A stretch of DNA of 13,135 bases from Nitrospinae bacterium RIFCSPLOWO2_12_FULL_45_22 (GTDB lineage Bacteria; 2-12-FULL-45-22): the NCBI GenBank assembly GCA_001803565.1, contig MHDQ01000181.1, positions 1 through 13,135 on the forward strand, written 5' to 3'. Of the stretch, positions 98-13,037 are shown in pieces. The notes beneath the pieces are model-generated. The model had not been told where the DNA came from and made no database searches. It worked only from the letters and a program-made list of their open reading frames with translations. The position numbers and the translations under genes were made by a program. Within the stretch, counting starts at the first letter, position 1. The number at the start of each line of letters is the position of its first letter.

Positions 98-1489
98 TTA
101 TTTCAGCTCCTGGAACTTGGTGCCATTGGCCCAGCCCCAGGCATCAAACCCACCCCGGGCCTTCCACATATCCTGGTACCGCGTGACCTTGGCCTTCATC
201 TCCGGGTCAAGCCGCGCTACCCCAGCCCGATCCTTATGCGTTTTTTCTTCATATAGGGGAACGTAGGGCGGGAATTGTTCGGCCTTGGTTACTGCTCGAT
301 AGCCCGGTGCAGATCGCCAGAAATACTCCTTACTCAGCTCGGTCATGGTATACTTAGTATCGGGGATCGGCTGTCCAAACTTGAAACCCCCATACCAACC
401 ATAGCCTCTATAATCTCGCTGCCAATCGCCTATGGCAATAGTGGTTCTCCCCCAGGCTGTTCTACCATTATAGCTATTAGGATAGGGCTTCCAGGTTTGT
501 TCGCCAAGTCCAATCCGGACATAGTTACCTTCATGGTCATACTGCTCCTCATGCAGTTGGAGCTTGGTATGTTTCTCTATCCAGTAGAGGATATACCCAA
601 GATAGTAATTTGGATCTTTAGGTATAGCCTTGACCACCCAGCACTCTATGCCCCCATCCTCCCGGTAGGGGTTCTGACTATCACCCCAGACCCCCTGGCC
701 CGGATAGACCGGGTTGTCTACAATGACCTTGGGGTCCCCCAGGATGTCATGACCCTTTATCCCATTAACCTCATAGAGGACATCCTCAGCGATAATCTCA
801 TAGGTATACTCCCAGAATTGCCGCTCGCCATTGTCATCATTGCTTGCGGGAAAACCGAGGGTATCGTCCTGGCGGTCACCTCCGGCCGAGCGCCTCACTC
901 GCCTCAGGGCCGGCACCCAGGAGTAGCGGTCCGGGTCCTTCCATTTACCCGGGGCATTATCATACTTGACTACCAGTTGGGCAAGCCCCCGGATCTCGGG
1001 TGGGTTATCCAGGATAGTGAAGGCCTTCTGGTAGATACTACTGATCCCCTGCCTATAGTGGATCACCTCATCAAACCTCTCCCAGGAATGGGTCCGCATG
1101 ATATAAAAGTTCTTGCTAATCACCAAACCCCGTTTGTTTATAGTAGGCAGATAACCAAAATAATCCTGGGTCTTACCCCCCTCGGCCCCCCAGAAGGCGC
1201 ATTCCCTGAACCAGAGCAGCTCCTCACCGGTATAGGGGACATCCTTGCGGGGCCAGGAGGGCTTCCAGGGGAAGGGGTCTTTAAGCACCCAGGGGTACTG
1301 CGGGTGGCGTTTATCCGGGGCAGTCAAGTCCTTTACTGGCTCAGCATAAGGGGTCCAGCCTTTAATGGTGACTGGTGCTGGGGCATATTTGTCTGCCGGC
1401 TGTTGCGCTAATACCGTACCTGGCTGGAGCCACCAGAACCCCAGGGCAAGCAAGGCAACCATTAGAAACATCATCTTTCTCTTTTGCAT
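98..1489 (-). CDS. DUF1329 family periplasmic/outer-membrane protein, copy 1
   Basis: Encodes 463 residues. A signal peptide is visible (basic MQKRK, hydrophobic core, cleavage probably after VLA near residue 28), so the protein is exported. Family evidence: the Arg-rich motif ALRRVRR at 194-200 followed by an acidic/Gly stretch (GGDRQDD), the overall length, and an adjacent DUF1302 gene. Known of the family: DUF1329 proteins have a LolA/LolB-like lipid-binding fold and are encoded next to DUF1302 barrels; no reaction is established. The chain is very rich in Trp and Tyr. Cys97 and Cys283 are conserved in both copies in this window and could form a disulfide. Start chosen at ATG 1489 because AAAGGAGGAG lies just upstream on the minus strand. 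It follows the DUF1302 gene by 384 bases, a gap widened by repeats compared with 132 bases in the other pair. About 80% identical to the copy at 4372-5763. Confidence 0.88.
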   Translation of the reverse strand: MQKRKMMFLMVALLALGFWWLQPGTVLAQQPADKYAPAPVTIKGWTPYAEPVKDLTAPDKRHPQYPWVLKDPFPWKPSWPRKDVPYTGEELLWFRECAFWGAEGGKTQDYFGYLPTINKRGLVISKNFYIMRTHSWERFDEVIHYRQGISSIYQKAFTILDNPPEIRGLAQLVVKYDNAPGKWKDPDRYSWVPALRRVRRSAGGDRQDDTLGFPASNDDNGERQFWEYTYEIIAEDVLYEVNGIKGHDILGDPKVIVDNPVYPGQGVWGDSQNPYREDGGIECWVVKAIPKDPNYYLGYILYWIEKHTKLQLHEEQYDHEGNYVRIGLGEQTWKPYPNSYNGRTAWGRTTIAIGDWQRDYRGYGWYGGFKFGQPIPDTKYTMTELSKEYFWRSAPGYRAVTKAEQFPPYVPLYEEKTHKDRAGVARLDPEMKAKVTRYQDMWKARGGFDAWGWANGTKFQELK

Positions 1490-1586
1490 GAGCTATCTCC
1501 TCCTTTCTCCGATTCTACTGCGCTTAATCAGTGGGCCATAATATCCATTAGTGTAATTGCCCAATATCTTGTGCGGAATTAATATC

Positions 1587-1711
1587 ACCGCAGAGACACA
1601 GAGAAGACCCGTAAGGCGTGAGAGCGTTAGGCATAAGGAGATGCCCCCTCACCCTCACACCTTACTCCTTACGATCCGTAAGAAGACTCTGCGCCTCAGC
1701 GTCTCTGCGGT
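1587..1711. repeat. Inverted-repeat element with ACCGCAGAGAC ends and inner heptads
   Basis: The terminal arms ACCGCAGAGAC (1587-1597) and its exact complement (1701-1711) frame a 125-base non-coding element. Inside are 7-base-spaced units: GTAAGGC, GTTAGGC and ATAAGGA on the left (1611-1639, one 8-base unit among them), and CCCTCAC, ACCTTAC, TCCTTAC on the right (1652-1672), which are reverse-complement versions. A similar CACAGAG-type element lies at 12680-12750. Confidence 0.65.
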
Positions 1712-1795
1712 TCAATGGCATCTTCTACAACTTATTGAGTAATTACCCATTAGTAACAACTCTGTCATCTCACCCCCTTTCTCCTCACTTTGTAG

Positions 1796-1841
1796 GCACG
1801 GATTTATCCGTGCATTATAAATAGCACGAATAGAATTCGTG
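1796..1841. repeat. Two adjacent short palindromes
   Basis: GCACGGATTTATCCGTGC (1796-1813) and CACGAAT-AGA-ATTCGTG (1825-1841) are two hairpins of the same GTAGGCAC family as 4333-4362. Neither is followed by a T-tract on the minus strand. Confidence 0.55.
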
Positions 1842-1848
1842 TGCAGGC

Positions 1849-1866
1849 CGGGGGCTTGTACCCCCG
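1849..1866 (-). other. GC-rich hairpin after the copy 1 DUF1302 stop
   Basis: CGGGGG (1849-1854) pairs with CCCCCG (1861-1866) around a 6-base loop, seven bases past the stop. There is no T-tract, so read-through into the DUF1329 gene is expected; a role in 3' stability is possible. Confidence 0.5.
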
Positions 1867-1873
1867 CCCTGGC

Positions 1874-3529
1874 TCAAAACTCGTACTTGACCTTGAACTC
1901 GACATAGTTCCGGTCGTTCAATGGCCCCCAGGCTAAATCGTTTGGGTGGCCATAGAAGTAGTGAAAGAGCACAGAGGCCGTGAGGTAGTTAGAGAAGGTA
2001 TAGCTGGTCCCGAATGTATTTTGCGAGGTCATGCGGTTAAAGGGGGTGATCATATTGATCCAGGTGATAGACCAGCGGTCTTCTGTAAAGGGAGCGCGCC
2101 AGGTTAGTGCTGGGAGGTAAATGGCACTGATATTATTTGCGGGGCTGGCAGGCTGCGGCACCGGTATCCCACCATCCCGGCCAAAGAGATAGGTAAATGA
2201 CCAGTAGAGCATGAAGCTAAAATCCTGCCGGAAATAGCTCTCTACCCCCCAAATCTGTCTATACAGGCTCCGCTTACTATAGCCATCATACTTATTCAGC
2301 AAGGGGTTAGTCAACCCCAGGGCGATAACACTCTCATTCAGGTTCGGGAGATACTTATTCAGGTCCAGGGCATTCTCAAAGAACATGCCCCAGTTTCGGT
2401 TTAGGAACCAGAAACTTTTATCCAGGGCTAGGCCCATAGTATGCAGCCGGGTAGGCTTGGGCTCGACAAAGTACCGGGGTGCCCCTCCTACTATGCGGAA
2501 GGCCCGGCGGAAACCGGTCATGGACTTGTCCCAGTAATAGGCATAGAAGAGGTGTCCGTTCCAGCCGCCATAATTGAACCCCAGCCGGGTGATCCACTCA
2601 TGGTCTTTGACATTCCAGGTAGGCATATCGGCCCGCATCCGGGTAGTCAGGGCCGCCGGGTTAATACCAATGTCTGAGGGGCTTCCTTGGGGCCAGACAT
2701 AGCCCGCAGGATAATAATAGTTCCGCTCATAGTCAAAGTTCCAGATCAACTGAAAATAGAGGTTAGGGGTGAATTGCCTGATGACCGAGAGCATCCAGGT
2801 AGGGAGATTGACATACTCAAAGTCGGTCTGGGTAAGGCGGGGGTTGGCGGCAGTGCCATACCTGAGGTCTACCGGGAAGACAGAATCATGCACCTTGGTA
2901 TCTACCTTGGCCCAGATATGCTGCTGCTTACCGAGTTGGATGATCCAGCCCGGCGGGGTCCATTTGAGATAAAGCTCACGCCAGATGCGCTTGGTATCGT
3001 TATAATACTCATCGGCCTCCTTGACTGCCGGGTAAAGGTTACGGCGGGCAGCACTGCGAGTACCACCAAAGCTGTGCTTGAAGCTATGGTCCCAATCATA
3101 CAGGGCATTGTAGCGGAAGTCCCAGATGCTGACAAACTCCAGGCTCGGTATAGCCGGTGGGACATAGCGGGCCTCCAACTCCGTGAACCACTCGATCTTC
3201 TCCAGGTTATAGTTCCGCTTCCGGAGAGCACCCGCGGGCAGTCCTGGGTTAGAGTTATAGCGGCCGGCGGCAGGCGGGTTGGGATTGCCCCGCATAGTCT
3301 TACCTCCACCTTCTCTCCCTCTGCCATTCAGGAACAAGCCGGTGTCATTCCAGAGAACCCCCTTCAGCCACAGGCCCGGGACCGCTTCTTCCACATTATT
3401 CAGGGCATGACCAAAGGGATCAAAATTACTCAGGTCAAACCACTTACCCTCCTCCTGGGCCTGGGCCAGCGTACTCAGGAACCCCAGGGCCAGGAGACAG
3501 ACTATTACTGAGAACATATGCCTTTTCAT
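1874..3529 (-). CDS. DUF1302 family outer-membrane beta-barrel (porin-like), copy 1
   Basis: Encodes 551 residues with a signal peptide (cleavage near LAQA, residue 24). The segment at about 185-223 carries the DUF1302 hallmark: an aromatic strand, then LGKQQHIW (199-206), then FPVDLRYG (218-225). The rest alternates aromatic and polar residues as in transmembrane beta strands, and the chain ends KVKYEF with a terminal Phe, the usual signal for BAM-mediated outer-membrane insertion. The family is believed to form porin-like channels for hydrophobic compounds; substrate unknown here. Start ATG 3529 has AAAGGAGGG four bases upstream. It is the first gene of a unit with the downstream DUF1329 gene. 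Transcription probably begins at the promoter at 4270-4298, giving a leader of about 735 bases that contains mobile-element remnants. About 88% identical to the copy at 5896-7551, with long stretches fully identical. Confidence 0.9.
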   Translation of the reverse strand: MKRHMFSVIVCLLALGFLSTLAQAQEEGKWFDLSNFDPFGHALNNVEEAVPGLWLKGVLWNDTGLFLNGRGREGGGKTMRGNPNPPAAGRYNSNPGLPAGALRKRNYNLEKIEWFTELEARYVPPAIPSLEFVSIWDFRYNALYDWDHSFKHSFGGTRSAARRNLYPAVKEADEYYNDTKRIWRELYLKWTPPGWIIQLGKQQHIWAKVDTKVHDSVFPVDLRYGTAANPRLTQTDFEYVNLPTWMLSVIRQFTPNLYFQLIWNFDYERNYYYPAGYVWPQGSPSDIGINPAALTTRMRADMPTWNVKDHEWITRLGFNYGGWNGHLFYAYYWDKSMTGFRRAFRIVGGAPRYFVEPKPTRLHTMGLALDKSFWFLNRNWGMFFENALDLNKYLPNLNESVIALGLTNPLLNKYDGYSKRSLYRQIWGVESYFRQDFSFMLYWSFTYLFGRDGGIPVPQPASPANNISAIYLPALTWRAPFTEDRWSITWINMITPFNRMTSQNTFGTSYTFSNYLTASVLFHYFYGHPNDLAWGPLNDRNYVEFKVKYEF

Positions 3530-3743: not shown

Positions 3744-3887
3744 GTAACCGTTCAGCCACGAAGAAGTGCAAAGTGTAAAACTACGGTAAATTATTCCTCA
3801 GCTTTGCACTTTTAGCTTTGCATTTTCCGCCCTCCTGGGCCTTTGTGCCTTAACGGCAGATAAAAGGTTATCCCGGTGAACGGTTAC
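3744..3887. mobile_element. IS66-type MITE with near-perfect 8-bp direct repeats
   Basis: Perfect 11-bp terminal inverted repeats (GTAACCGTTCA at 3744-3754; TGAACGGTTAC at 3877-3887) enclose 144 bases without a gene. The flanks are ATTAAACG (3736-3743) and ATTAAACT (3888-3895), a 7/8 match consistent with an 8-bp target duplication. IS66-family elements are known for GTAA ends and 8-bp duplications; the assignment is inferred from those two traits. The interior contains GCAAAGTG / CTTTGCACTTT repeats. Confidence 0.65.
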
Positions 3888-4371: not shown

Positions 4372-5763
4372 CTACTTCAGCTCCTGGAACTTGGTACCAT
4401 TGGCCCAGCCCCAGGGATCATAACCACCACGGGCCTTCCACATATCCTGGCTGGCCCTGGCCTTCTTGATCAGCTCCGGGTCGAGCCGTTCTACCCCAAC
4501 CCGGTCTTTACACTTCTTCTCTAAATAGAAATAGGGGTAGGGGGGGAAATGATCAATCTTGGTTACTGGCCGATAGCCCGGTACCGGGCGCCAGAAATAC
4601 TCCTTTTGCAGCTCGGGTATAGTATACTTGGTATCAGGGATGGGCTGGCCATATTTGAAGCCACCATACCAGGCCATCCCCCAAAAATCTCTCTGCCAAT
4701 CACCCAATAAGATAGTGGTCCTGCCCCAGGCCACTCTACCTTTATAGGAATTGGGATAGGCCTTCCAGCTTTGTTCGCCTATCCCCATCCGGATATAGTT
4801 GCCTTCATGGTCATACTGCTCCTCATGCAGTGGCAGCTTGGTACGCTTCTCTATCCAGTCGAGGATATACCCTAGATAATATTTCGGGTCTTTAGGCGTG
4901 AGCTTAACTACCCAGCACTCTAAGCCCCCATCCTCCCGGTAGGGGTTCTGACCATCTCCCCAGACCCCGGCTCCAGGATAGATCGGGTTGTCCACAATAA
5001 CCTTGGGGTCTCCCAGGATGGCCTGACCTCTTGCCCCATTAACCTCATAAAGGATGTCTTCACCAATGATCTCATAGGTATATTCCCAGTATTGCCGCTC
5101 GCCATTATCGTCATTGCTCAAGGGATAACCCAGGGAGTCGTCCTGCCGGTCACCACCGGCCGAGCGCCTCACCCGCCGCAAAGCCGGTACCCAGGCATAG
5201 CGGTCCGGGTCTTTCCACTTGCCCGGGGCATTGTTGTATTTGACTACCAGTTGCGCAAAGCCCCGCAGCTCGGGCGGGTTATCCAGGATAGTGAAGACTT
5301 TTTGGTAGAGGCCATTGACCCCCATCTTGTAGTGGATGATCTCATCAAACTTCTCCCAGTAATGGGTGCGCATGATATAGAAGTTTTTGCTGACGACCAA
5401 GCCCCGGCGGTTCCGCATGACGGAATACCCACAATAATCCGCGGTCTTACCTCCCTCGGCCCCCCAGAAGGCGCATTCCCTAAGCCAGAGCAACTCCTCA
5501 CCGGTATACGGGACATCCTTGGTGGGCCAGGAGGGCTTCCAGGGAAAGGGGTCTTTAAGTACCCAGGGGTACTGTGGATGGCGCTTATCCGGGGCAGTCC
5601 AGTCCTTTACCGGCTCAGCATAAGGTGTCCAGCCCTTGATGGTTGATGGTGCAGGGGCATACTTGTCTGCCGGCGCCTGCGCTGACACTACAACTGGATT
5701 AAACCACCAGAACCCCAGGCTCAGCAATAAAACCATTAGGAACATCATCTTTCTCTTCTGCAT
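4372..5763 (-). CDS. DUF1329 family periplasmic/outer-membrane protein, copy 2
   Basis: Encodes 463 residues, collinear without gaps with the copy at 98-1489 and about 80% identical. Signal peptide near residues 1-28 (VVVSAQA region). It keeps the ALRRVRR motif (194-200) and Cys97/Cys283, and adds two cysteines absent from copy 1, Cys111 and Cys418, so a second disulfide is possible. The ends (first 10 and last 13 residues) are identical between copies; the most divergent stretches are about residues 112-118 and 400-440. Start ATG 5763 has AAGGAGGAGG about 8 bases upstream. It follows its DUF1302 partner by 132 bases and is closed by a strong terminator at 4327-4362. Family role as inferred for DUF1329: a lipid- or hydrophobe-binding partner of the DUF1302 barrel; not demonstrated here. 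Confidence 0.88.
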   Translation of the reverse strand: MQKRKMMFLMVLLLSLGFWWFNPVVVSAQAPADKYAPAPSTIKGWTPYAEPVKDWTAPDKRHPQYPWVLKDPFPWKPSWPTKDVPYTGEELLWLRECAFWGAEGGKTADYCGYSVMRNRRGLVVSKNFYIMRTHYWEKFDEIIHYKMGVNGLYQKVFTILDNPPELRGFAQLVVKYNNAPGKWKDPDRYAWVPALRRVRRSAGGDRQDDSLGYPLSNDDNGERQYWEYTYEIIGEDILYEVNGARGQAILGDPKVIVDNPIYPGAGVWGDGQNPYREDGGLECWVVKLTPKDPKYYLGYILDWIEKRTKLPLHEEQYDHEGNYIRMGIGEQSWKAYPNSYKGRVAWGRTTILLGDWQRDFWGMAWYGGFKYGQPIPDTKYTIPELQKEYFWRPVPGYRPVTKIDHFPPYPYFYLEKKCKDRVGVERLDPELIKKARASQDMWKARGGYDPWGWANGTKFQELK

Positions 5764-5870
5764 GAGCTATCCTCCTCCTTATCTACGATTCTGCTGCAGT
5801 TAAGCCGTAAACTTTTAGTATCTTTTTATTAACAAACCTATCCTCTCACCCCCTTTCTCCTCATTACTGA

Positions 5871-5888
5871 CGGGGGGATGGCCCCCCG
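5871..5888 (-). other. GC-rich hairpin after the copy 2 DUF1302 stop
   Basis: CGGGGGG (5871-5877) pairs with CCCCCCG (5882-5888) around a 4-base loop, seven bases past the stop. No T-tract follows, so transcription probably continues into the DUF1329 gene 132 bases away. Confidence 0.5.
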
Positions 5889-5895
5889 CTCCAGC

Positions 5896-7551
5896 TTAAA
5901 ACTCGTACTTGACCTTGAATTCGACATAATTCCGATCGTTCAATGGCCCCCAGAGTAAGTCGTTCGGGTGGCCATAGAAATAGTGAAAGAGCACCGAGGC
6001 CGTGAGGTAGTTAGAGAAGGTATAGCTGGTCCCGAATGTATTTTGCGAGGTCATGCGGTTAAGGGGGGTGATCATATTGATCCAACTGATAGACCAGCGG
6101 TCTTCGGTAAAGGGAGCGCGCCAGGTTAGTGCCGGGAGGTAAATGGCGCTGATATTATTTGCGGGGCTGGCAGGCTGCGGTGCCGGTATCCCTCCATCCC
6201 GACCAAAGACATAGGTAAATGCCCAGTAGAGCAGGAAGCTAAAATCCTGCATGAAATAGCTCTCTACACCCCAGATATGTTTATACAGGGTCCGCTTACT
6301 ATAGCCATCATACTTATTCAGCAAGGGGTTAGTCAACCCCAGGGCTATAACACTCTCATTTAGATTCGGGAGATATTTGTTAAGCAGAAAATAATTCTCG
6401 AAGAACATGGCCCAGTTGCGCTTCAGGAACCAGAAGTTGGTATCCAGGGCAATACCGGTATAATGCACCCGGGTCGGCTTGGGCTCGACAAAGTAGCGCG
6501 GCGCACCCCCTACTATGCGGGAGGCCCGGCGGAAACCAGTAAGAGACTTATCCCAGACATAGGCATAGAGCAGGTGCCCGTTCCAGCGGCCGACATTAAA
6601 CCCAAGCCGGGTGATCCACTCATGGTCTTTGACATTCCAGGTGGGCATATCGGCCCGCATCCGGGTAGTCAGGGCCGCCGGGTTGATACCGATATCTGAG
6701 GGGCTCCCCGAAGGCCAGACATAGCCCGCAGGATAGGTGTAGTTCCTTTCGTAGTCAAAGTTCCAGATCAACTGAAAATAAACGTGTGACCCTAACTGTT
6801 TGGTGGCCGAGAGCATCCAGGTAGGGATATTGACATACTCATAGTCAGTCTGGGTAAGGCGGGGATTGGCAGCAGTGCCATACCTTAAGTCCACTGGGAA
6901 GAGGTCATCATGAACCTTGGTGTCTACCTTTGCCCAGATATGCTGCTGCTTGCCTAATTGGATGATCCAGCCCGGTGGGGTCCATTTGATATAGAACTCC
7001 CGCCAGATGCGCTTGGTATCGTTATAATACTCATCGGCTTCTTTTACGGCTGGGTAGAGGTTACGGCGGGCAGCACTGGTAGTAGCACCGAAGCTGTGCT
7101 TGAAGCTATGGTCCCAGTCATACAGGGCATTGTAGCGGAAATCCCAGATGCTGATAAACTCAAGGTTCGGTATAGCCGGTGGGACATAGCGGGCCTCCAG
7201 CTCCGTGAACCACTCGATCTTCTCCAGGTTATAGTTCCGCTTCCGGAGAGCACCGGCGGGCAGTCCTGGGTTAGAGTTATAGCGACCCGCCGCAGGTGGG
7301 TTGGGATTGCCCCGCATAGCCTTACCTCCACCTTCTCGTCCTCTGCCATTCAGGAACAACCCCGTATCATTCCAGATAATCCCCTTCAGGTAGAGGCCCG
7401 GGACACACTCTTCGACATTGTCCAGGGCATGGCCAAAGGGATCGAAATTACTCAGGTCAAACCATTTGCCCTCCTCCTGTGCCTGCGCCGTACCCAGGAA
7501 GAACATGCATAGGAGCAAGCACAAACTCAGAACACTCATCTTCGCTTTCAT
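5896..7551 (-). CDS. DUF1302 family outer-membrane beta-barrel (porin-like), copy 2
   Basis: Encodes 551 residues from ATG 7551. An in-frame ATG also exists at 7575, but its first codons would themselves form the ribosome-binding site AAAGGAGGG (7558-7566). Starting at 7551 places that site 6 bases upstream and makes the protein exactly the length of its paralogue, so 7551 is preferred. A signal peptide ends near TAQA (residue 24). The LGKQQHIW and FPVDLRYG motifs and the terminal KYEF are conserved. Against copy 1 I count about 68 differences in 551. Apart from the signal peptide they cluster at 248-258 and 361-390, whereas 80-128 and 285-319 are nearly unchanged, suggesting strong constraint or gene conversion. 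It carries an extra mature cysteine (Cys49, Ala in copy 1). Likely co-transcribed with the DUF1329 gene that follows and perhaps read from the cupredoxin-fold gene upstream. Confidence 0.9.
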   Translation of the reverse strand: MKAKMSVLSLCLLLCMFFLGTAQAQEEGKWFDLSNFDPFGHALDNVEECVPGLYLKGIIWNDTGLFLNGRGREGGGKAMRGNPNPPAAGRYNSNPGLPAGALRKRNYNLEKIEWFTELEARYVPPAIPNLEFISIWDFRYNALYDWDHSFKHSFGATTSAARRNLYPAVKEADEYYNDTKRIWREFYIKWTPPGWIIQLGKQQHIWAKVDTKVHDDLFPVDLRYGTAANPRLTQTDYEYVNIPTWMLSATKQLGSHVYFQLIWNFDYERNYTYPAGYVWPSGSPSDIGINPAALTTRMRADMPTWNVKDHEWITRLGFNVGRWNGHLLYAYVWDKSLTGFRRASRIVGGAPRYFVEPKPTRVHYTGIALDTNFWFLKRNWAMFFENYFLLNKYLPNLNESVIALGLTNPLLNKYDGYSKRTLYKHIWGVESYFMQDFSFLLYWAFTYVFGRDGGIPAPQPASPANNISAIYLPALTWRAPFTEDRWSISWINMITPLNRMTSQNTFGTSYTFSNYLTASVLFHYFYGHPNDLLWGPLNDRNYVEFKVKYEF

Positions 7552-7557
7552 AAGAAA

Positions 7558-7566
7558 CCCTCCTTT
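7558..7566 (-). promoter_or_regulatory. Ribosome-binding site fixing the DUF1302 copy 2 start
   Basis: On the minus strand this reads AAAGGAGGG, six bases before ATG 7551. The matching site AAAGGAGGG before the paralogue (3534-3542) supports the same start. It lies inside the longer alternative reading frame from 7575, which argues against that start. Confidence 0.8.
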
Positions 7567-7920
7567 CGTTACCATTTTCCACCTTAGATTGAACTAATTA
7601 GCTTTGTACGGCTAGCTCTCTCTCCTGCTACCATCGTTACCTCAGCATCAGGATTTTCGCTTGATCGAGCAGTGTTCGTTTGGCGCAATATAAACTATCT
7701 GGAATCAAAATATTCTCAACCCATAAATCATCACCTCCCCCTGCCTTTCTTATACCAGTTCATCATATTTAATAGCATTCAGCAATCAGCCGTCAGCTCT
7801 CAGCTTAACCCATTGGCAAGTAAAATTCTTTTTCCCCTCAGCATCTCATCCCTTACTCCTAACGCCTTAGGAAAAATCTTGCTGAGCGCTGATAGCTTAC
7901 AACTGAACCCTTACTAGATA
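7567..7920. other. Intergenic region between the cupredoxin-fold gene and DUF1302 copy 2
   Basis: No gene is supported; an 81-codon plus-strand frame here runs through repeats and is rejected. It holds a repeat element (7771-7900) and a block near 7716-7747 resembling the leader of the other DUF1302 gene. I found no convincing promoter or terminator, so pair 2 may depend partly on read-through from upstream. Confidence 0.6.
7771..7900. mobile_element. Degenerate GTAA-family element rich in heptads
   Basis: The left end AATAGCATTCAGC (7771-7783) and right end GCTGATAGCTTAC (7888-7900) are decayed versions of the GTAAGCGTTCAGC ends at 9453-9600. Four 7-base units TCAGCAA, TCAGCCG, TCAGCTC, TCAGCTT run from 7779 to 7806, and five more (CCTCAGC, ATCTCAT, CCCTTAC, TCCTAAC, GCCTTAG) from 7836 to 7870. 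No target duplication is visible. Confidence 0.5.
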
Positions 7921-8379: not shown

Positions 8380-8473
8380 CTTCCCTCCCTCCTATAATAA
8401 TGGGTTAATAATAAACGGCATAAAGCCACCTACACCTCCTCTAAAACCTTAAGCCTCCTCATTTGTCTAGTCC

Positions 8474-9292
8474 TCAATCTTTAGCGCAGCGGAAGCCGAT
8501 ACCATTGCTTTTGGTGCCGGGTTCGGCCAGGACCCGGCTAAATGTTTGCGCATCTTTAGCATCACTGCTCCAGGCCCCACCCCGAACAATGAGCATCGTA
8601 TACCACAAATCCTGGCCATCACTGCCTTTTTCTCTGGGAGAATGCTGGTATTGGCGGTATTCCATACTGGTCCATTCCATGACATTGCCCGCCAGGTCAT
8701 ACACACCATAAGGGCTCTTGCCCGCCTCGTATTTCCCTACTGCATGGATGCTTTTTGCGCCGGCTTCCCAGGTATTGGTCTTAGTCTTATCAAATTCTTT
8801 ACCCCAGGGGAATTCCCGGGCATCAGCCCCCCGGGCGGCCTTTTCCCACTCCTCTTCGCCTGGTAATCGTTTCCCCGCCCAATTACAATAGGTCTTAGCA
8901 TCCCACCAGGCAACAAACGTTACCGGATAATCGTCTTCGCCCTCAGGATAAGCGCCGGTATGCTGCCAATGATCCGGTAGCCGGTACCTGGTCTCATCTA
9001 CAAATTTCTTGTATTGCCTATTAGTCACCTCATATTTATCCAGGTAAAACCCCTTCAAGTATACCACCCGCTTTTTTCTCGGTTCTTGGAATTTAGTAGC
9101 ATAGCCATAGGGATTTCTTAAGATACGGAACTCTTCATTATCGGTACCCATGATAAATTTTCCACCGGCTATATAGACCATATCGCTGGTAGCAGATGTA
9201 TCCCCGGCCAGGGAGTACCTCAGCAACCAGTAGGAAAGGGCTGGCACCAGCAAAACAAATAGAGCTATAAGGATTAACTTTTTGCTGGACAT
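8474..9292 (-). CDS. Membrane-anchored SUMF1/FGE-fold protein, non-catalytic
   Basis: Encodes 272 residues from ATG 9292. An N-terminal hydrophobic segment (about 5-22) anchors a periplasmic domain with the SUMF1 (formylglycine-generating-enzyme-like) signature: GGKFIMGTD (43-51), DKYEVTN (85-91), YPVTFVAWWDAKTYCNW (122-138), YDLAGNVMEW (198-207), VRGGAW (236-241) and GFRC (266-269). In true FGE a cysteine pair follows the RGG-S/A-W motif; here it reads SSDAKDAQTFSR, so both catalytic cysteines are missing and sulfatase activation is unlikely. Such SUMF1-fold proteins often serve as binding or complex subunits (NirV-, GldK-like). A TTG at 9319 could extend the frame by 9 codons, but the promoter at 9332-9360 would start transcription near 9325, leaving no room for a ribosome site; GAGGGG (9306-9311) serves ATG 9292, although its 13-base spacing is long. 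Likely co-transcribed with the cupredoxin-fold gene. Confidence 0.85.
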   Translation of the reverse strand: MSSKKLILIALFVLLVPALSYWLLRYSLAGDTSATSDMVYIAGGKFIMGTDNEEFRILRNPYGYATKFQEPRKKRVVYLKGFYLDKYEVTNRQYKKFVDETRYRLPDHWQHTGAYPEGEDDYPVTFVAWWDAKTYCNWAGKRLPGEEEWEKAARGADAREFPWGKEFDKTKTNTWEAGAKSIHAVGKYEAGKSPYGVYDLAGNVMEWTSMEYRQYQHSPREKGSDGQDLWYTMLIVRGGAWSSDAKDAQTFSRVLAEPGTKSNGIGFRCAKD

Positions 9293-9331
9293 CTTTATCT
9301 CAGGTCCCCTCAATGACAAATTTTACGGCTT

Positions 9332-9360
9332 ACTGTAGACCAGAATAAAAGAAATGTCAA
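9332..9360 (-). promoter_or_regulatory. Sigma70-type promoter for SUMF1-like and cupredoxin-fold genes
   Basis: On the minus strand TTGACA (9360-9355), a 17-base spacer, then TACAGT (9337-9332). A run of T/A (AATTTTTTTTTG) lies directly upstream, as in an UP element. The predicted start of transcription near 9325 leaves a leader of about 33 bases before ATG 9292. Confidence 0.65.
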
Positions 9361-9452
9361 CAAAAAAAAATTAAAAATTATTTTCGCTCATAGCCGATTA
9401 CAGACCTCTCCAGGCAAATAAGGAATTGCAAATAGCTTGACTTTGTCACATT

Positions 9453-9600
9453 GTAAGCGTTCAGCCGTCAGCAATCAGTGGTCAGCAAGGCAAATAAAAA
9501 CAACAGCTTATATACAAAACCTTAGCTTGGGAATTATAGACTGTTCTCTTGTGTCATATTGGTTTTGCTGAAAGCTGACGGCTAATAGCTGAACGCTTAC
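9453..9600. mobile_element. IS66-type MITE with perfect 8-bp target duplication
   Basis: Perfect 13-bp terminal inverted repeats (GTAAGCGTTCAGC at 9453-9465; complement at 9588-9600) enclose a 148-base element with no gene. It is flanked on both sides by GTCACATT (9445-9452 and 9601-9608). Inside each end are 7-base units: TCAGCCG, TCAGCAA, TCAGTGG, TCAGCAA on the left (9461-9488) and a matching reversed set on the right. GTAA ends with 8-bp duplications are characteristic of IS66-family transposition; no transposase is present, so it would be moved in trans. Confidence 0.8.
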
Positions 9601-9606
9601 GTCACA

Positions 9607-9633
9607 TTTATAGCAAACTGATTAGCTTGACAA
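9607..9633 (-). promoter_or_regulatory. Possible extended -10 promoter beside the MITE
   Basis: On the minus strand TTGTCA (9633-9628), a 15-base spacer and TGC-TATAAA (-10 at 9612-9607). The short spacer makes it weak. Transcription would begin at or inside the MITE end. Confidence 0.25.
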
Positions 9634-9652
9634 TGTCAGGCGACTAACAATC

Positions 9653-12502
9653 TTATTTCGTAGGGGCCAGGTTAGGGTTCAGGCGGAGGGCCTGCTGGTA
9701 TGCCTGAGCGGCTTCCTGTCTCCAGCCTTTAGCAAAAAAGGCATCTGCCAACAAATAGTATACTTCAGCCAGATCAGGCTGTAGCTCCAGGATAGATTTG
9801 TATAAGGCGATAGCCTCATCGGGCATCCCCTTAGCTAGATGCTCCTCACCCCAGCTAAGGGCCAGGTCAGTTAAGGCATAACCTGCTTCGGCATCCATAG
9901 GATTAAGGCTGAGGCCCTTTTTTAGTTCTTGTAAGGCAAGATTCCCCTGGCCAGCCAGCATGGCCCGAATTCCATTGGCAATGTATAACCTGGCCTGATA
10001 GACCCCCCTGAGGGCCTTTTCTCGTCCCTCTCGATCTGCGCCCCAATTATGTATTAGAGGCAGGATGGGCTTTCGGTGCGGTGCGAGCCCTTCCAGGAGC
10101 TTATCGGTCTGGATGGGCCGATACAGGTCTTGCGAGGCGCGGTATTCGATCAGATTATTATTGTCAGTATGGATAGGGGCATCATGGGCATATAAGGCCG
10201 CTTCTGTGCCATCCATCACAAAAATCCCTAAGATATTATACATATTAGCTTTACCAATCCGGGCCAGATCAGCCTGGACTTTGGCCTGGGCCAGGCTATG
10301 CTCCAGCCGCGGGAGGTCTATCTTTAGGGCCTGCTGGCTGCCTATGAGGAGATAATCACCACCAGTAGAGATTTCCCAGAGGGAAGAGTAGGGGAAGGCC
10401 TGGCTAAAGGTCTTGAGGAGGGAGCGGAAGCTCCTGGCTGAGAGGTTATATGCCTGCACCCATTGGCAGATAAGGCCATTATCGTTTAACCTTTTCTTTA
10501 CTAACGTATAATAATCCCGGGAGAAAAGGCTCCCCATCCCTGCAATCCAGAGGTTGGAGGGTTCTGAGATGATTACATCGTACCTTTTTTCCCTTAGCAG
10601 GAGGTGATTGCGGCCATCACCTATTATGAGGTTGAGGCGGGGGTCGGCTAAGGCATTATGGGTAAAATTTTGAAAGAACCTGGCCGCCTCTACTACTTCC
10701 GGCGATATCTCCACGGTATCAATCTCTTTAACCGGGTACTGCTCGATAGAACCCAGGGTAAGACCGCTACCCAGGCCAATCAGCAGGACCTGTGCCGGGT
10801 GGGGATGAAATAGCAAGGGTAAGTGGGCAGTTAGAATCTGAGTGGGCATATCCCGGTGCCGGGTGGAGGCATCTACTTTGCCATTGATCTGGAGGGTAAG
10901 GGCCCGGTCAATAGCTCGCTCATATACCGAGACCGTGGCACTGACGCCTTCTTTGTGATAGAGGATATTCCCTTGAGATTCCATAACATCTTTGACCCCA
11001 ATGGCATTATTGCCCGGGATAGGTTGATATATCTGATAATAGATATAGGGGCCGCTATTTAGAATATACCGGTTCCACTGGGGGGTATACCAGAGCAATA
11101 GGGGGGTCAGGATCAGACCAAAACCTAACCTTACCGCCTTTCCCAAACTATAGTAACCGGGGTTTATCAGGATAATCAATAACCCCGGTAAGATATTCAT
11201 TAGGGCGGCGGCGATAATAGTCTTCTGGAGTCCTAACCATGGTATCAGGATAAAGCCACCACAAAAGGCCCCCAGGATAGACCCCAGGGTATTGATAGCA
11301 TAGACCCTCCCTATGGAAGGGGTGACTTTTTCCAGGCTCTGGGTATATATCTTGGTTATTAAAGGGAAAGTTATACCTATGAGGAAGGTAGGTATTAGGA
11401 TCAGTAGGAATATAAAGCTAAATTCGATCCCCTGGAGGAGATAGAAACTCTGACCATAATTTTGCAGCACTTTTACTATGAAGATAGACAATTGCTGGAA
11501 GAGGGGGATCAGCAACAGGGCGGCGAACCCAATAGCTAACTGGAGCTGACCAAACAGACCCAGCAGGTCTGCCCGCTTATCCAGGTAGCGGGCCAGGAAG
11601 AGGCTGCCCAGGGCTAAGCCAGTAATAAAGGCGGTCAATATAAGGGTGAAGGCATAATGGGAAGAGCCAATAGCTAAAGATAATACCCTGGTCCAGGCCA
11701 CCTGGTAGGTCATAGAAGCAAAACCTGAAGCAGCTAAAGACCATACCGCTATCTCAGCTAAGATATAAGGGAGGGGTTTAGGGCCAACCAGTTGGGCCTT
11801 GGTTTTGGCTTTAACCCCAGCCCGGGGTAAGGATTTAGGTGGCAGTAGAGGCGAAGGTGCAAGGGCCGGGGGGCTGCGGCGGGCTAGCAGAATGACTGCG
11901 GTGGCAATAGCCAGATTAATAAAGGCCGCCAGATATATAGTAGACCTCATCCCTAAATAAGGGAGCAGGATAAACCCACTAAGTGCAGAACCTAAAGCCG
12001 CACCAAAGGTATTCAGGGAATAAATCTTGCCAATGCTCCAGCCCAGATGGGGAAACTGGTCAACAAAATATTTGCTTAAGACCGGTAAAGTAGCGCCCAT
12101 AAGGGCAGTGGGGATCAGCAGGATAAGGCTGCAGATGGAGAAGCGGAGCAGGCTGAAGAGATAGAAGGAGGTAGTCAACTCATTATATATAAGCTGATAA
12201 AGAGGGATCACGAGCTGCAGTAACCCGGGTATTAATAGGCAATAGAGACCGATTCCCCCTTCTAAAATCCCGTAAACCTTTACGGGATGAAAAGACCTGG
12301 TCATGAGCCGGCCAGCGCCATAACTGCCAATAGCTAAGCCAGCCATAAAGGCAGTTAAGACCGTGGTGACGGAGAATACCGTGTTACCGATAACCAGGGT
12401 CAGGAGCCGGGTCCAGACCACCTCATAAATCAGGCCACAAGCCCCGGATAAAAAGAAAAATACCAGGATCAGCCCCTTATACTCTCTATCCCTTTGCGTC
12501 AT
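9653..12502 (-). CDS. Fused multi-TM / spermidine-synthase-like protein with TPR tail
   Basis: Encodes 949 residues in three parts. Residues 10-205 and 245-445 are two homologous membrane halves of about six helices each: SGACGLIYEVVWTRLL (19-34) matches SGFASMTYQVAWTRVL (259-274), and IPTALMGATLP (130-140) matches IPTFLIGITFP (370-380); a Pro/Lys-rich linker (207-245) joins them. Residues 510-725 form a spermidine-synthase-like Rossmann domain: GLGSG (576-580), DTVEIS (595-600), IGDGR (627-631). Where aminopropyltransferases have the catalytic Asp (D-x-T-D-P region) this reads IISEPSN, so polyamine synthesis is doubtful. Residues about 845-949 are TPR-like (SLNPMDAEAGYAL, ELQPDLAEVYYLLADAF, LRLNPNL). 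Known of the family: fused membrane/spermidine-synthase proteins are widespread and functionally undefined. Start ATG 12502 lacks a clear ribosome site, but the N-terminus matches the family's usual beginning. Confidence 0.88.
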   Translation of the reverse strand: MTQRDREYKGLILVFFFLSGACGLIYEVVWTRLLTLVIGNTVFSVTTVLTAFMAGLAIGSYGAGRLMTRSFHPVKVYGILEGGIGLYCLLIPGLLQLVIPLYQLIYNELTTSFYLFSLLRFSICSLILLIPTALMGATLPVLSKYFVDQFPHLGWSIGKIYSLNTFGAALGSALSGFILLPYLGMRSTIYLAAFINLAIATAVILLARRSPPALAPSPLLPPKSLPRAGVKAKTKAQLVGPKPLPYILAEIAVWSLAASGFASMTYQVAWTRVLSLAIGSSHYAFTLILTAFITGLALGSLFLARYLDKRADLLGLFGQLQLAIGFAALLLIPLFQQLSIFIVKVLQNYGQSFYLLQGIEFSFIFLLILIPTFLIGITFPLITKIYTQSLEKVTPSIGRVYAINTLGSILGAFCGGFILIPWLGLQKTIIAAALMNILPGLLIILINPGYYSLGKAVRLGFGLILTPLLLWYTPQWNRYILNSGPYIYYQIYQPIPGNNAIGVKDVMESQGNILYHKEGVSATVSVYERAIDRALTLQINGKVDASTRHRDMPTQILTAHLPLLFHPHPAQVLLIGLGSGLTLGSIEQYPVKEIDTVEISPEVVEAARFFQNFTHNALADPRLNLIIGDGRNHLLLREKRYDVIISEPSNLWIAGMGSLFSRDYYTLVKKRLNDNGLICQWVQAYNLSARSFRSLLKTFSQAFPYSSLWEISTGGDYLLIGSQQALKIDLPRLEHSLAQAKVQADLARIGKANMYNILGIFVMDGTEAALYAHDAPIHTDNNNLIEYRASQDLYRPIQTDKLLEGLAPHRKPILPLIHNWGADREGREKALRGVYQARLYIANGIRAMLAGQGNLALQELKKGLSLNPMDAEAGYALTDLALSWGEEHLAKGMPDEAIALYKSILELQPDLAEVYYLLADAFFAKGWRQEAAQAYQQALRLNPNLAPTK

Positions 12503-12522: not shown

Positions 12523-12665
12523 GTAACAGTTCACGGGGGTCAGGGATCGGTTGTCAGGCAATCTTTTCCTCAAAGACATCTTTCGCGCAATCTCCAGATA
12601 TTGATGACCATTCAAAATTTAAAGTATTCCCTGAGCCCTGTGAACTGAACCCCGTGAACTGTTAC
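12523..12665. mobile_element. GTAA-ended MITE-like element with 16-bp inverted repeats
   Basis: Perfect 16-bp terminal inverted repeats (GTAACAGTTCACGGGG at 12523-12538; complement at 12650-12665) around 111 bases. The flanks ATGGTCAC and AATGTAAC agree at only 5 of 8 positions, so any target duplication is decayed or absent. Inserted only 20 bases upstream of the 949-residue gene's start codon, which may explain its missing ribosome site. Confidence 0.6.
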
Positions 12666-12961: not shown

Positions 12962-13037
12962 GTAAGCATTCAGCTATCAGCCGTCAGCTTTCAGTATTAT
13001 CCGTCACCACTTACGATAAGCTTTGCTGAACGCTTAC
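12962..13037. mobile_element. Short GTAA-ended MITE copy
   Basis: Ends GTAAGCATTCAGC (12962-12974) and GCTGAACGCTTAC (13025-13037) match in 12 of 13 positions around a 76-base element. Four heptads TCAGCTA, TCAGCCG, TCAGCTT, TCAGTAT run from 12970 to 12997; on the right only the outermost unit remains, so the right half looks truncated. No flanking duplication. Confidence 0.6.

Follow-up and report, generated by a model that had tools for sequence, protein, structure and literature searches.

A dispersed, gene-less element with GTAA ends and interrupted palindromic arms, and its likely IS66 parentage, in a Nitrospinae genome

The DNA analysed here (the window, 13,135 nucleotides) is one entire contig, C181, of a 3.67 Mb metagenome-assembled genome (MAG) of 321 contigs which is 85% complete. 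At 9445–9608 it carries a short palindromic stretch between two intact genes, which raises the question of whether this is a transposed element, and if so, which kind of transposase moved it.

Structure of the element and evidence of insertion

The element is 148 bp long (9453–9600) and is bracketed exactly by two copies of GTCACATT, at 9445–9452 and 9601–9608, as expected of a complete element with a perfect 8-bp target-site duplication, which is how an earlier note had read it. Of three occurrences of GTCACATT in the window (0.18 expected), two abut the element. The 13 terminal bases are perfectly inverted at both ends, with GTAAGCGTTCAGC at 9453–9465 (plus strand) and its reverse complement at 9588–9600 (minus strand); the same note's description of 13-bp perfect ends beginning GTAA was therefore accurate, as was its statement that the element has no gene, no open-reading frame of 80 aa or more being present inside 9453–9600. 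Past these ends the arms are ~75% complementary over 44 nt and are built of heptads. The left arm (9466–9486, plus strand) has the cores TCAGC, TCAGT and TCAGC, preceded by the spacers CG, AA and GG (9466–67, 9473–74 and 9480–81), whilst the right arm (9567–9587, minus strand) has the spacers TA, CG and TT and the cores TTAGC, TCAGC and TCAGC, with all right-arm spacer bases mismatched to their left-arm partners.

The gap that holds the element is flanked by two minus-strand genes, neither of which is broken, one encoding a membrane/spermidine-synthase-like/TPR protein (9653–12502) and the other an FGE-sulfatase-domain protein (8474–9319). A promoter-like site sits at 9360–9332 (minus strand), in the interval from the element to the gene downstream of it, and about as many such sites would be expected by chance.

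The comparison genomes comprised one of the same order and a remainder of the same domain only, and paralogous empty sites were used instead to follow insertion. A sister copy, C150, which shares 90% identity with the window element along its length, sits within a repeat that, where it is uninterrupted (L083, L102, L183 and L161), carries the TGACAAAG duplication of C150 just once, with identity continuing through the junction. Likewise, the C300 copy has empty sites in L073 and L082, the last base of its duplication being different. The paralogous empty sites of these two sister copies provide the evidence that the family inserts. The repeat that hosts the C150 copy is itself a further dispersed repeat with a CGAGCAAGCTCGACCACTACAAATT palindrome, found in the L072 flank of 9987–10133, in L083 (11490–11606), in L102 (3572–3666), and in L183 and L161.

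The window element differs by 10% from the nearest copy found and by ~22–26% from the other copies in its own genome, and a family with this range of divergence is old and diverse, with individual insertions keeping their duplications. The suggestion that the window copy moved fairly recently was an overstatement, as it leant on the intact 8-mer and the nearest copy found is 10% different; an intact 8-mer by itself gives no date for the insertion.

Folded with RNA parameters the element reaches −57.6 kcal/mol, compared to −32.3 ± 3.8 kcal/mol for shuffles (z = −6.7). This strong predicted fold, the intergenic position and the palindromic arms with TCAGC cores would all suit a palindrome of the REP/BIME kind, or the hairpin of an intergenic RNA such as a terminator or processing site, rather than a transposon. 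REP and BIME palindromes are also intergenic with a conserved tetranucleotide at the foot, however, they have no target duplication and their tetranucleotide is outside the stem, whereas the GTAA of the 148-bp element falls within the palindrome and many copies have 8-bp duplications exactly at their borders. The empty sites disfavour a hairpin further, no T-run terminator was found in 9300–9700, and no Rfam family matched anywhere in the window. Transitions, which would leave G-U pairs on one RNA strand, make up 38% of the spacer mismatches in the family with no depletion; this absence of G-U avoidance speaks against selection acting on RNA. We therefore rejected an RNA function and consider a REP-like or hairpin origin very unlikely.

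A dispersed family among several in the host genome

A genome-wide search for the 13-bp end, of the kind the earlier note had proposed, returned 23 exact matches to GTAAGCGTTCAGC in the 3.67 Mb and 80 with at most one mismatch, whereas the reversed control pattern had three. Forty contigs (477 kb), picked without regard to such elements, were also scanned blindly, and all 240 non-palindromic tetramers were tried as ends of 60–420 bp elements having 14-bp inverted ends (≤4 mismatches) and perfect 8-bp flanking repeats. GTAA yielded five elements against a mean of 0.013 for the other tetramers, and in the same contigs no GTAA elements had flanking repeats of 5–7 or 9–11 bp, thus the combination of GTAA...TTAC borders with 8 bp is a trait of the mobile fauna of this genome, beyond the single locus. 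None of 24 GTAA elements was inside an open-reading frame of ≥150 aa, though such frames account for 78% of bases. The 148-bp element is a single copy of a dispersed family recurring across the genome. A chance origin, in which an inverted repeat and a direct repeat merely coincide, has just the short length of the duplication in its favour; it is refuted by the genome-wide copy number and the blind scan, and its probability is negligible. In being small, gene-less and intergenic, with inverted ends, an exact duplication, multiple copies and paralogous empty sites, the element conforms to the MITE proposed for it.

At least eight families with GTAA...TTAC borders are present in the MAG: the heptad family and those characterised by GTAACCGTTCACCCGG/AGCCACCAAGG, GTAATTGCTCAATA, GTAAATGTTTAGCC, GTAACAGTTCACGGGG, GTAACTACTCAGG, GTAACYGTTCACC (with internal GTCATTCTGAG) and GTAACGGTTCAGG. 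These IS66-type families constitute nearly all of the small terminal-repeat elements with clean duplications in the genome. Six GTAA-bounded elements or remnants occur in the window, including, besides the 148-bp copy, a 194-bp GTAA...TTAC element (1553–1746) with a GTAATTGCCCAATA end and a perfect duplication, CCATTAGT, a 144-bp GTAACCGTTCAGCC element (3744–3887) with a near-perfect duplication, ATTAAACG/ATTAAACT, and a 143-bp GTAACAGTTCACGGGG element (12523–12665) with 16-bp perfect ends and a 5/8 duplication. The heptad family is further represented by copies that are shortened or degenerate, at 12962–13037 (GTAAGCATTCAGC end) and ~7774–7914 (GTAAGGGTTCAGT end). A two-gene unit of the window is tandemly duplicated (98–3529 and 4372–7575), encoding a LolA-like outer-membrane protein and a protein of 551/559 aa, of which the 551-aa copy is without a Pfam match. 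The 194-bp element is missing from the paralogous gap of this duplicated gene pair (5678–5863), an empty site that is no more than supportive, given the divergence of the duplicated gap around the junction.

As a class the element is ordinary, since MITEs are known, and it is the regularly interrupted palindrome of its arms that is unusual. Chunjie in Geobacter uraniireducens and the IS982-derived MITECca01 in Cardinium are similarly small and non-coding with inverted ends and many copies, and the Chunjie copies are summarised in a review as intergenic, with direct repeats and variable length (PMC10969869). These belong to other parent or end families, whereas the elements here have TCAGC-heptad arms and middles that are unrelated between hosts. 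Several of the dispersed palindromic repeats encountered when such MAGs are annotated are explained by heptad and other GTAA elements.

Probable IS66 parentage and the missing partner

We consider it highly probable that the element is a non-autonomous IS66-family MITE, with the single-ORF ISBst12 group as its most likely affiliation. Complete elements with an IS66 transposase (DDE_Tnp_IS66), taken from other genomes in which the heptad MITE or a relative of it also occurs, measure about 1.5–1.8 kb and have GTAA ends. For example, Pyrinomonadaceae MGR_bin10 contains both the heptad MITE and a 1600 bp element (L134; ends GTAAGCGTTCAGTTGG) with one 498-aa open-reading frame matching Pfam DDE_Tnp_IS66. 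The L134 end is identical to GTAAGCGTTCAGC over its first 12 bp and diverges afterwards, and no matching duplication was found at its borders. Another IS66-transposase element, L127, has GTAATGGGTCAG ends and an 8/8 duplication, GGCAGCCC, whilst L131 and L126 end in GTAACTACTCAG, L150 ends in GTAATTGCTCAATA, and L143 also has GTAA ends. Several MITE subfamily ends, GTAACTACTCAG, GTAATTGCTCAATA and GTAACCGTTCAC, each recur on IS66-transposase elements, and a number of the ends of such elements match other MITE families of the host MAG. Two further candidates for heptad-ended IS66 partners, L129 and L142, were discarded as they are MITE copies near IS66 remnants.

Published members agree with this picture, and with the general association of IS66 with GTAA ends and 8-bp duplications on which the earlier note had drawn. 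ISDge4 of the ISBst12 group is bounded by GTGACTACTCAGCA/GTAACTGCTCAGCA and flanked by an 8-bp repeat (PMC12898284), the IS66 elements ISPpa5a and ISPpa7 have 8-bp repeats (PMC3281130), and the ends of ISPsko1 (IS66) begin GTAAGCGTCCGG (PMC12888890). The ISBst12 group (ISBst12, ISDge4) and the element share GTAA-type ends resembling GTAAnnGTTCA and an 8-bp target duplication, and a truncated IS66-family transposase gene is present in the host MAG; the element differs in having no gene, and its 13-bp end was not found on a complete IS66 there. The assignment is strong because IS66-transposase elements share the end type and published members agree, and with the outcome of the blind scan for GTAA and 8 bp, the IS66-type label is well supported. 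The literature searched yielded no IS66-derived MITE, which is not proof of absence.

In the mechanism we propose, an IS66-type transposase acting in trans would recognise the GTAAGCGTTCA(GC) ends and join them to a staggered target cut, and host repair of the 8-nt stagger would leave the flanking 8-bp duplication. A full IS66 with identical ends, which the earlier note had suggested looking for in the genome, did not turn up. One IS66 transposase gene was found in the MAG, truncated by Ns, and its subfamily end is a different one (GTAACC); the distance inwards from a GTAACCGTTCACCC end to the gene start is 133 bp, and that end is also found on another MITE family of the same genome. In this 85%-complete assembly no IS66 bearing exact GTAAGCGTTCAGC ends came to light, and a second model, PF13007, gave nothing. 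The contrast is therefore between at least eight MITE families and one broken IS66 transposase gene visible. We infer that the partner was an IS66 transposase which acted in trans, and that it is by now missing from the MAG, left out of the assembly or decayed beyond recognition. The one IS66 gene (L083, 7151–8470) is joined over an N gap (8470–8478) to a frame that is not IS66, and this junction is probably an assembly join at a repeat.

Movement by a DDE transposase of another family giving 8-bp duplications would be in line with the failure to find a matching transposase in the 85%-complete MAG, and an 8-bp duplication is also known from the IS6 element ISPpa9 (PMC3281130). However, the GTAA terminus, and GTAACTACTCAG, GTAATTGCTCAATA and GTAACCGTTCAC, recur as the ends of IS66-transposase elements, and we regard mobilisation by another family as unlikely.

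Heptad arms and their distribution

Arms of the heptad family follow the pattern GTAAGCGT TCAGC nn TCAGC nn TCAGC nn TCAGC, with a period of 7 nt. The cores pair across the arms at 622 of 675 bases, whilst facing spacer bases match at only 12 of 270 positions in register, compared to 185/540 out of register and 115/540 within one arm. In an enlarged sample, collapsed to 44 distinct spacer configurations, 22 of 264 bases matched where register shuffles predict 65 (minimum 35 in 20,000 shuffles), and both bases were mismatched in 115 of the 132 spacer pairs. Taking one element per genome from eight genomes, 4.6% of spacer bases matched, against 22.7% when arms were swapped between genomes. Oriented arm swaps within genomes revealed no coevolution of the arms, the match rate being about equal (5.1% against 8.5% in the OWN set, p = 0.15; SRSF, p = 0.39; KDeep, p = 0.62). 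Copies would thus simply inherit mismatched arms from a master, and the mismatch signal comes from differences between genomes.

Outside the arms, full-length copies from different genomes have largely unrelated middles, which align with a mean score of −2.1 (shuffled, −5.1; within a genome, 44.1), yet total element length clusters at 147 bp (23 of 59). It is possible, rather than probable, that the heptad arms are under selection to remain an interrupted palindrome in which cores pair and spacers are kept mismatched, across unrelated genomes and with differing spacer letters; avoidance of pairing is plausible at this strength because the argument is built on eight lineages that have some of their spacer letters in common. 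If so, the arms would be a structural signal at the DNA level, which might restrict cruciform formation or define where the transposase makes contact, and such a signal would be outside the usual description of IS66 ends or MITEs. A literature search for the arm sequence motif returned only unrelated papers. The conserved arms and length, alongside unrelated middles, make the role of the arm architecture in IS66 transposition directly testable.

An exact search for both 13-bp ends in 84,980 species genomes detected them in several Deltaproteobacteria MAGs, two Pyrinomonadaceae, one Anaerolineales and two unclassified bacteria. The heptad-armed element was present in several Deltaproteobacteria MAGs, two Pyrinomonadaceae and one unclassified marine MAG, and the end-plus-heptad pattern had 227 matches in the K_DeepCast MAG and 100 in Modern_marine.mb.176. 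In the RIFOXY/HGW genomes the ends read GTAAGCGTTCAGCAG and then other sequence, and the arms beyond them are not heptads; these elements show 15 matched, 2 mismatched, ~5 matched and 2 mismatched positions, most clearly in L033. Finally, in the RIFOXYD12 Deltaproteobacteria (L036, L044, L056, L057 and L062) GTAA elements occur with a longer GTAATCGTTCACC/GTAAGCGTTCACC element, which bears a 7–8/8 duplication, with one border in common, an arrangement of nested or composite MITEs.
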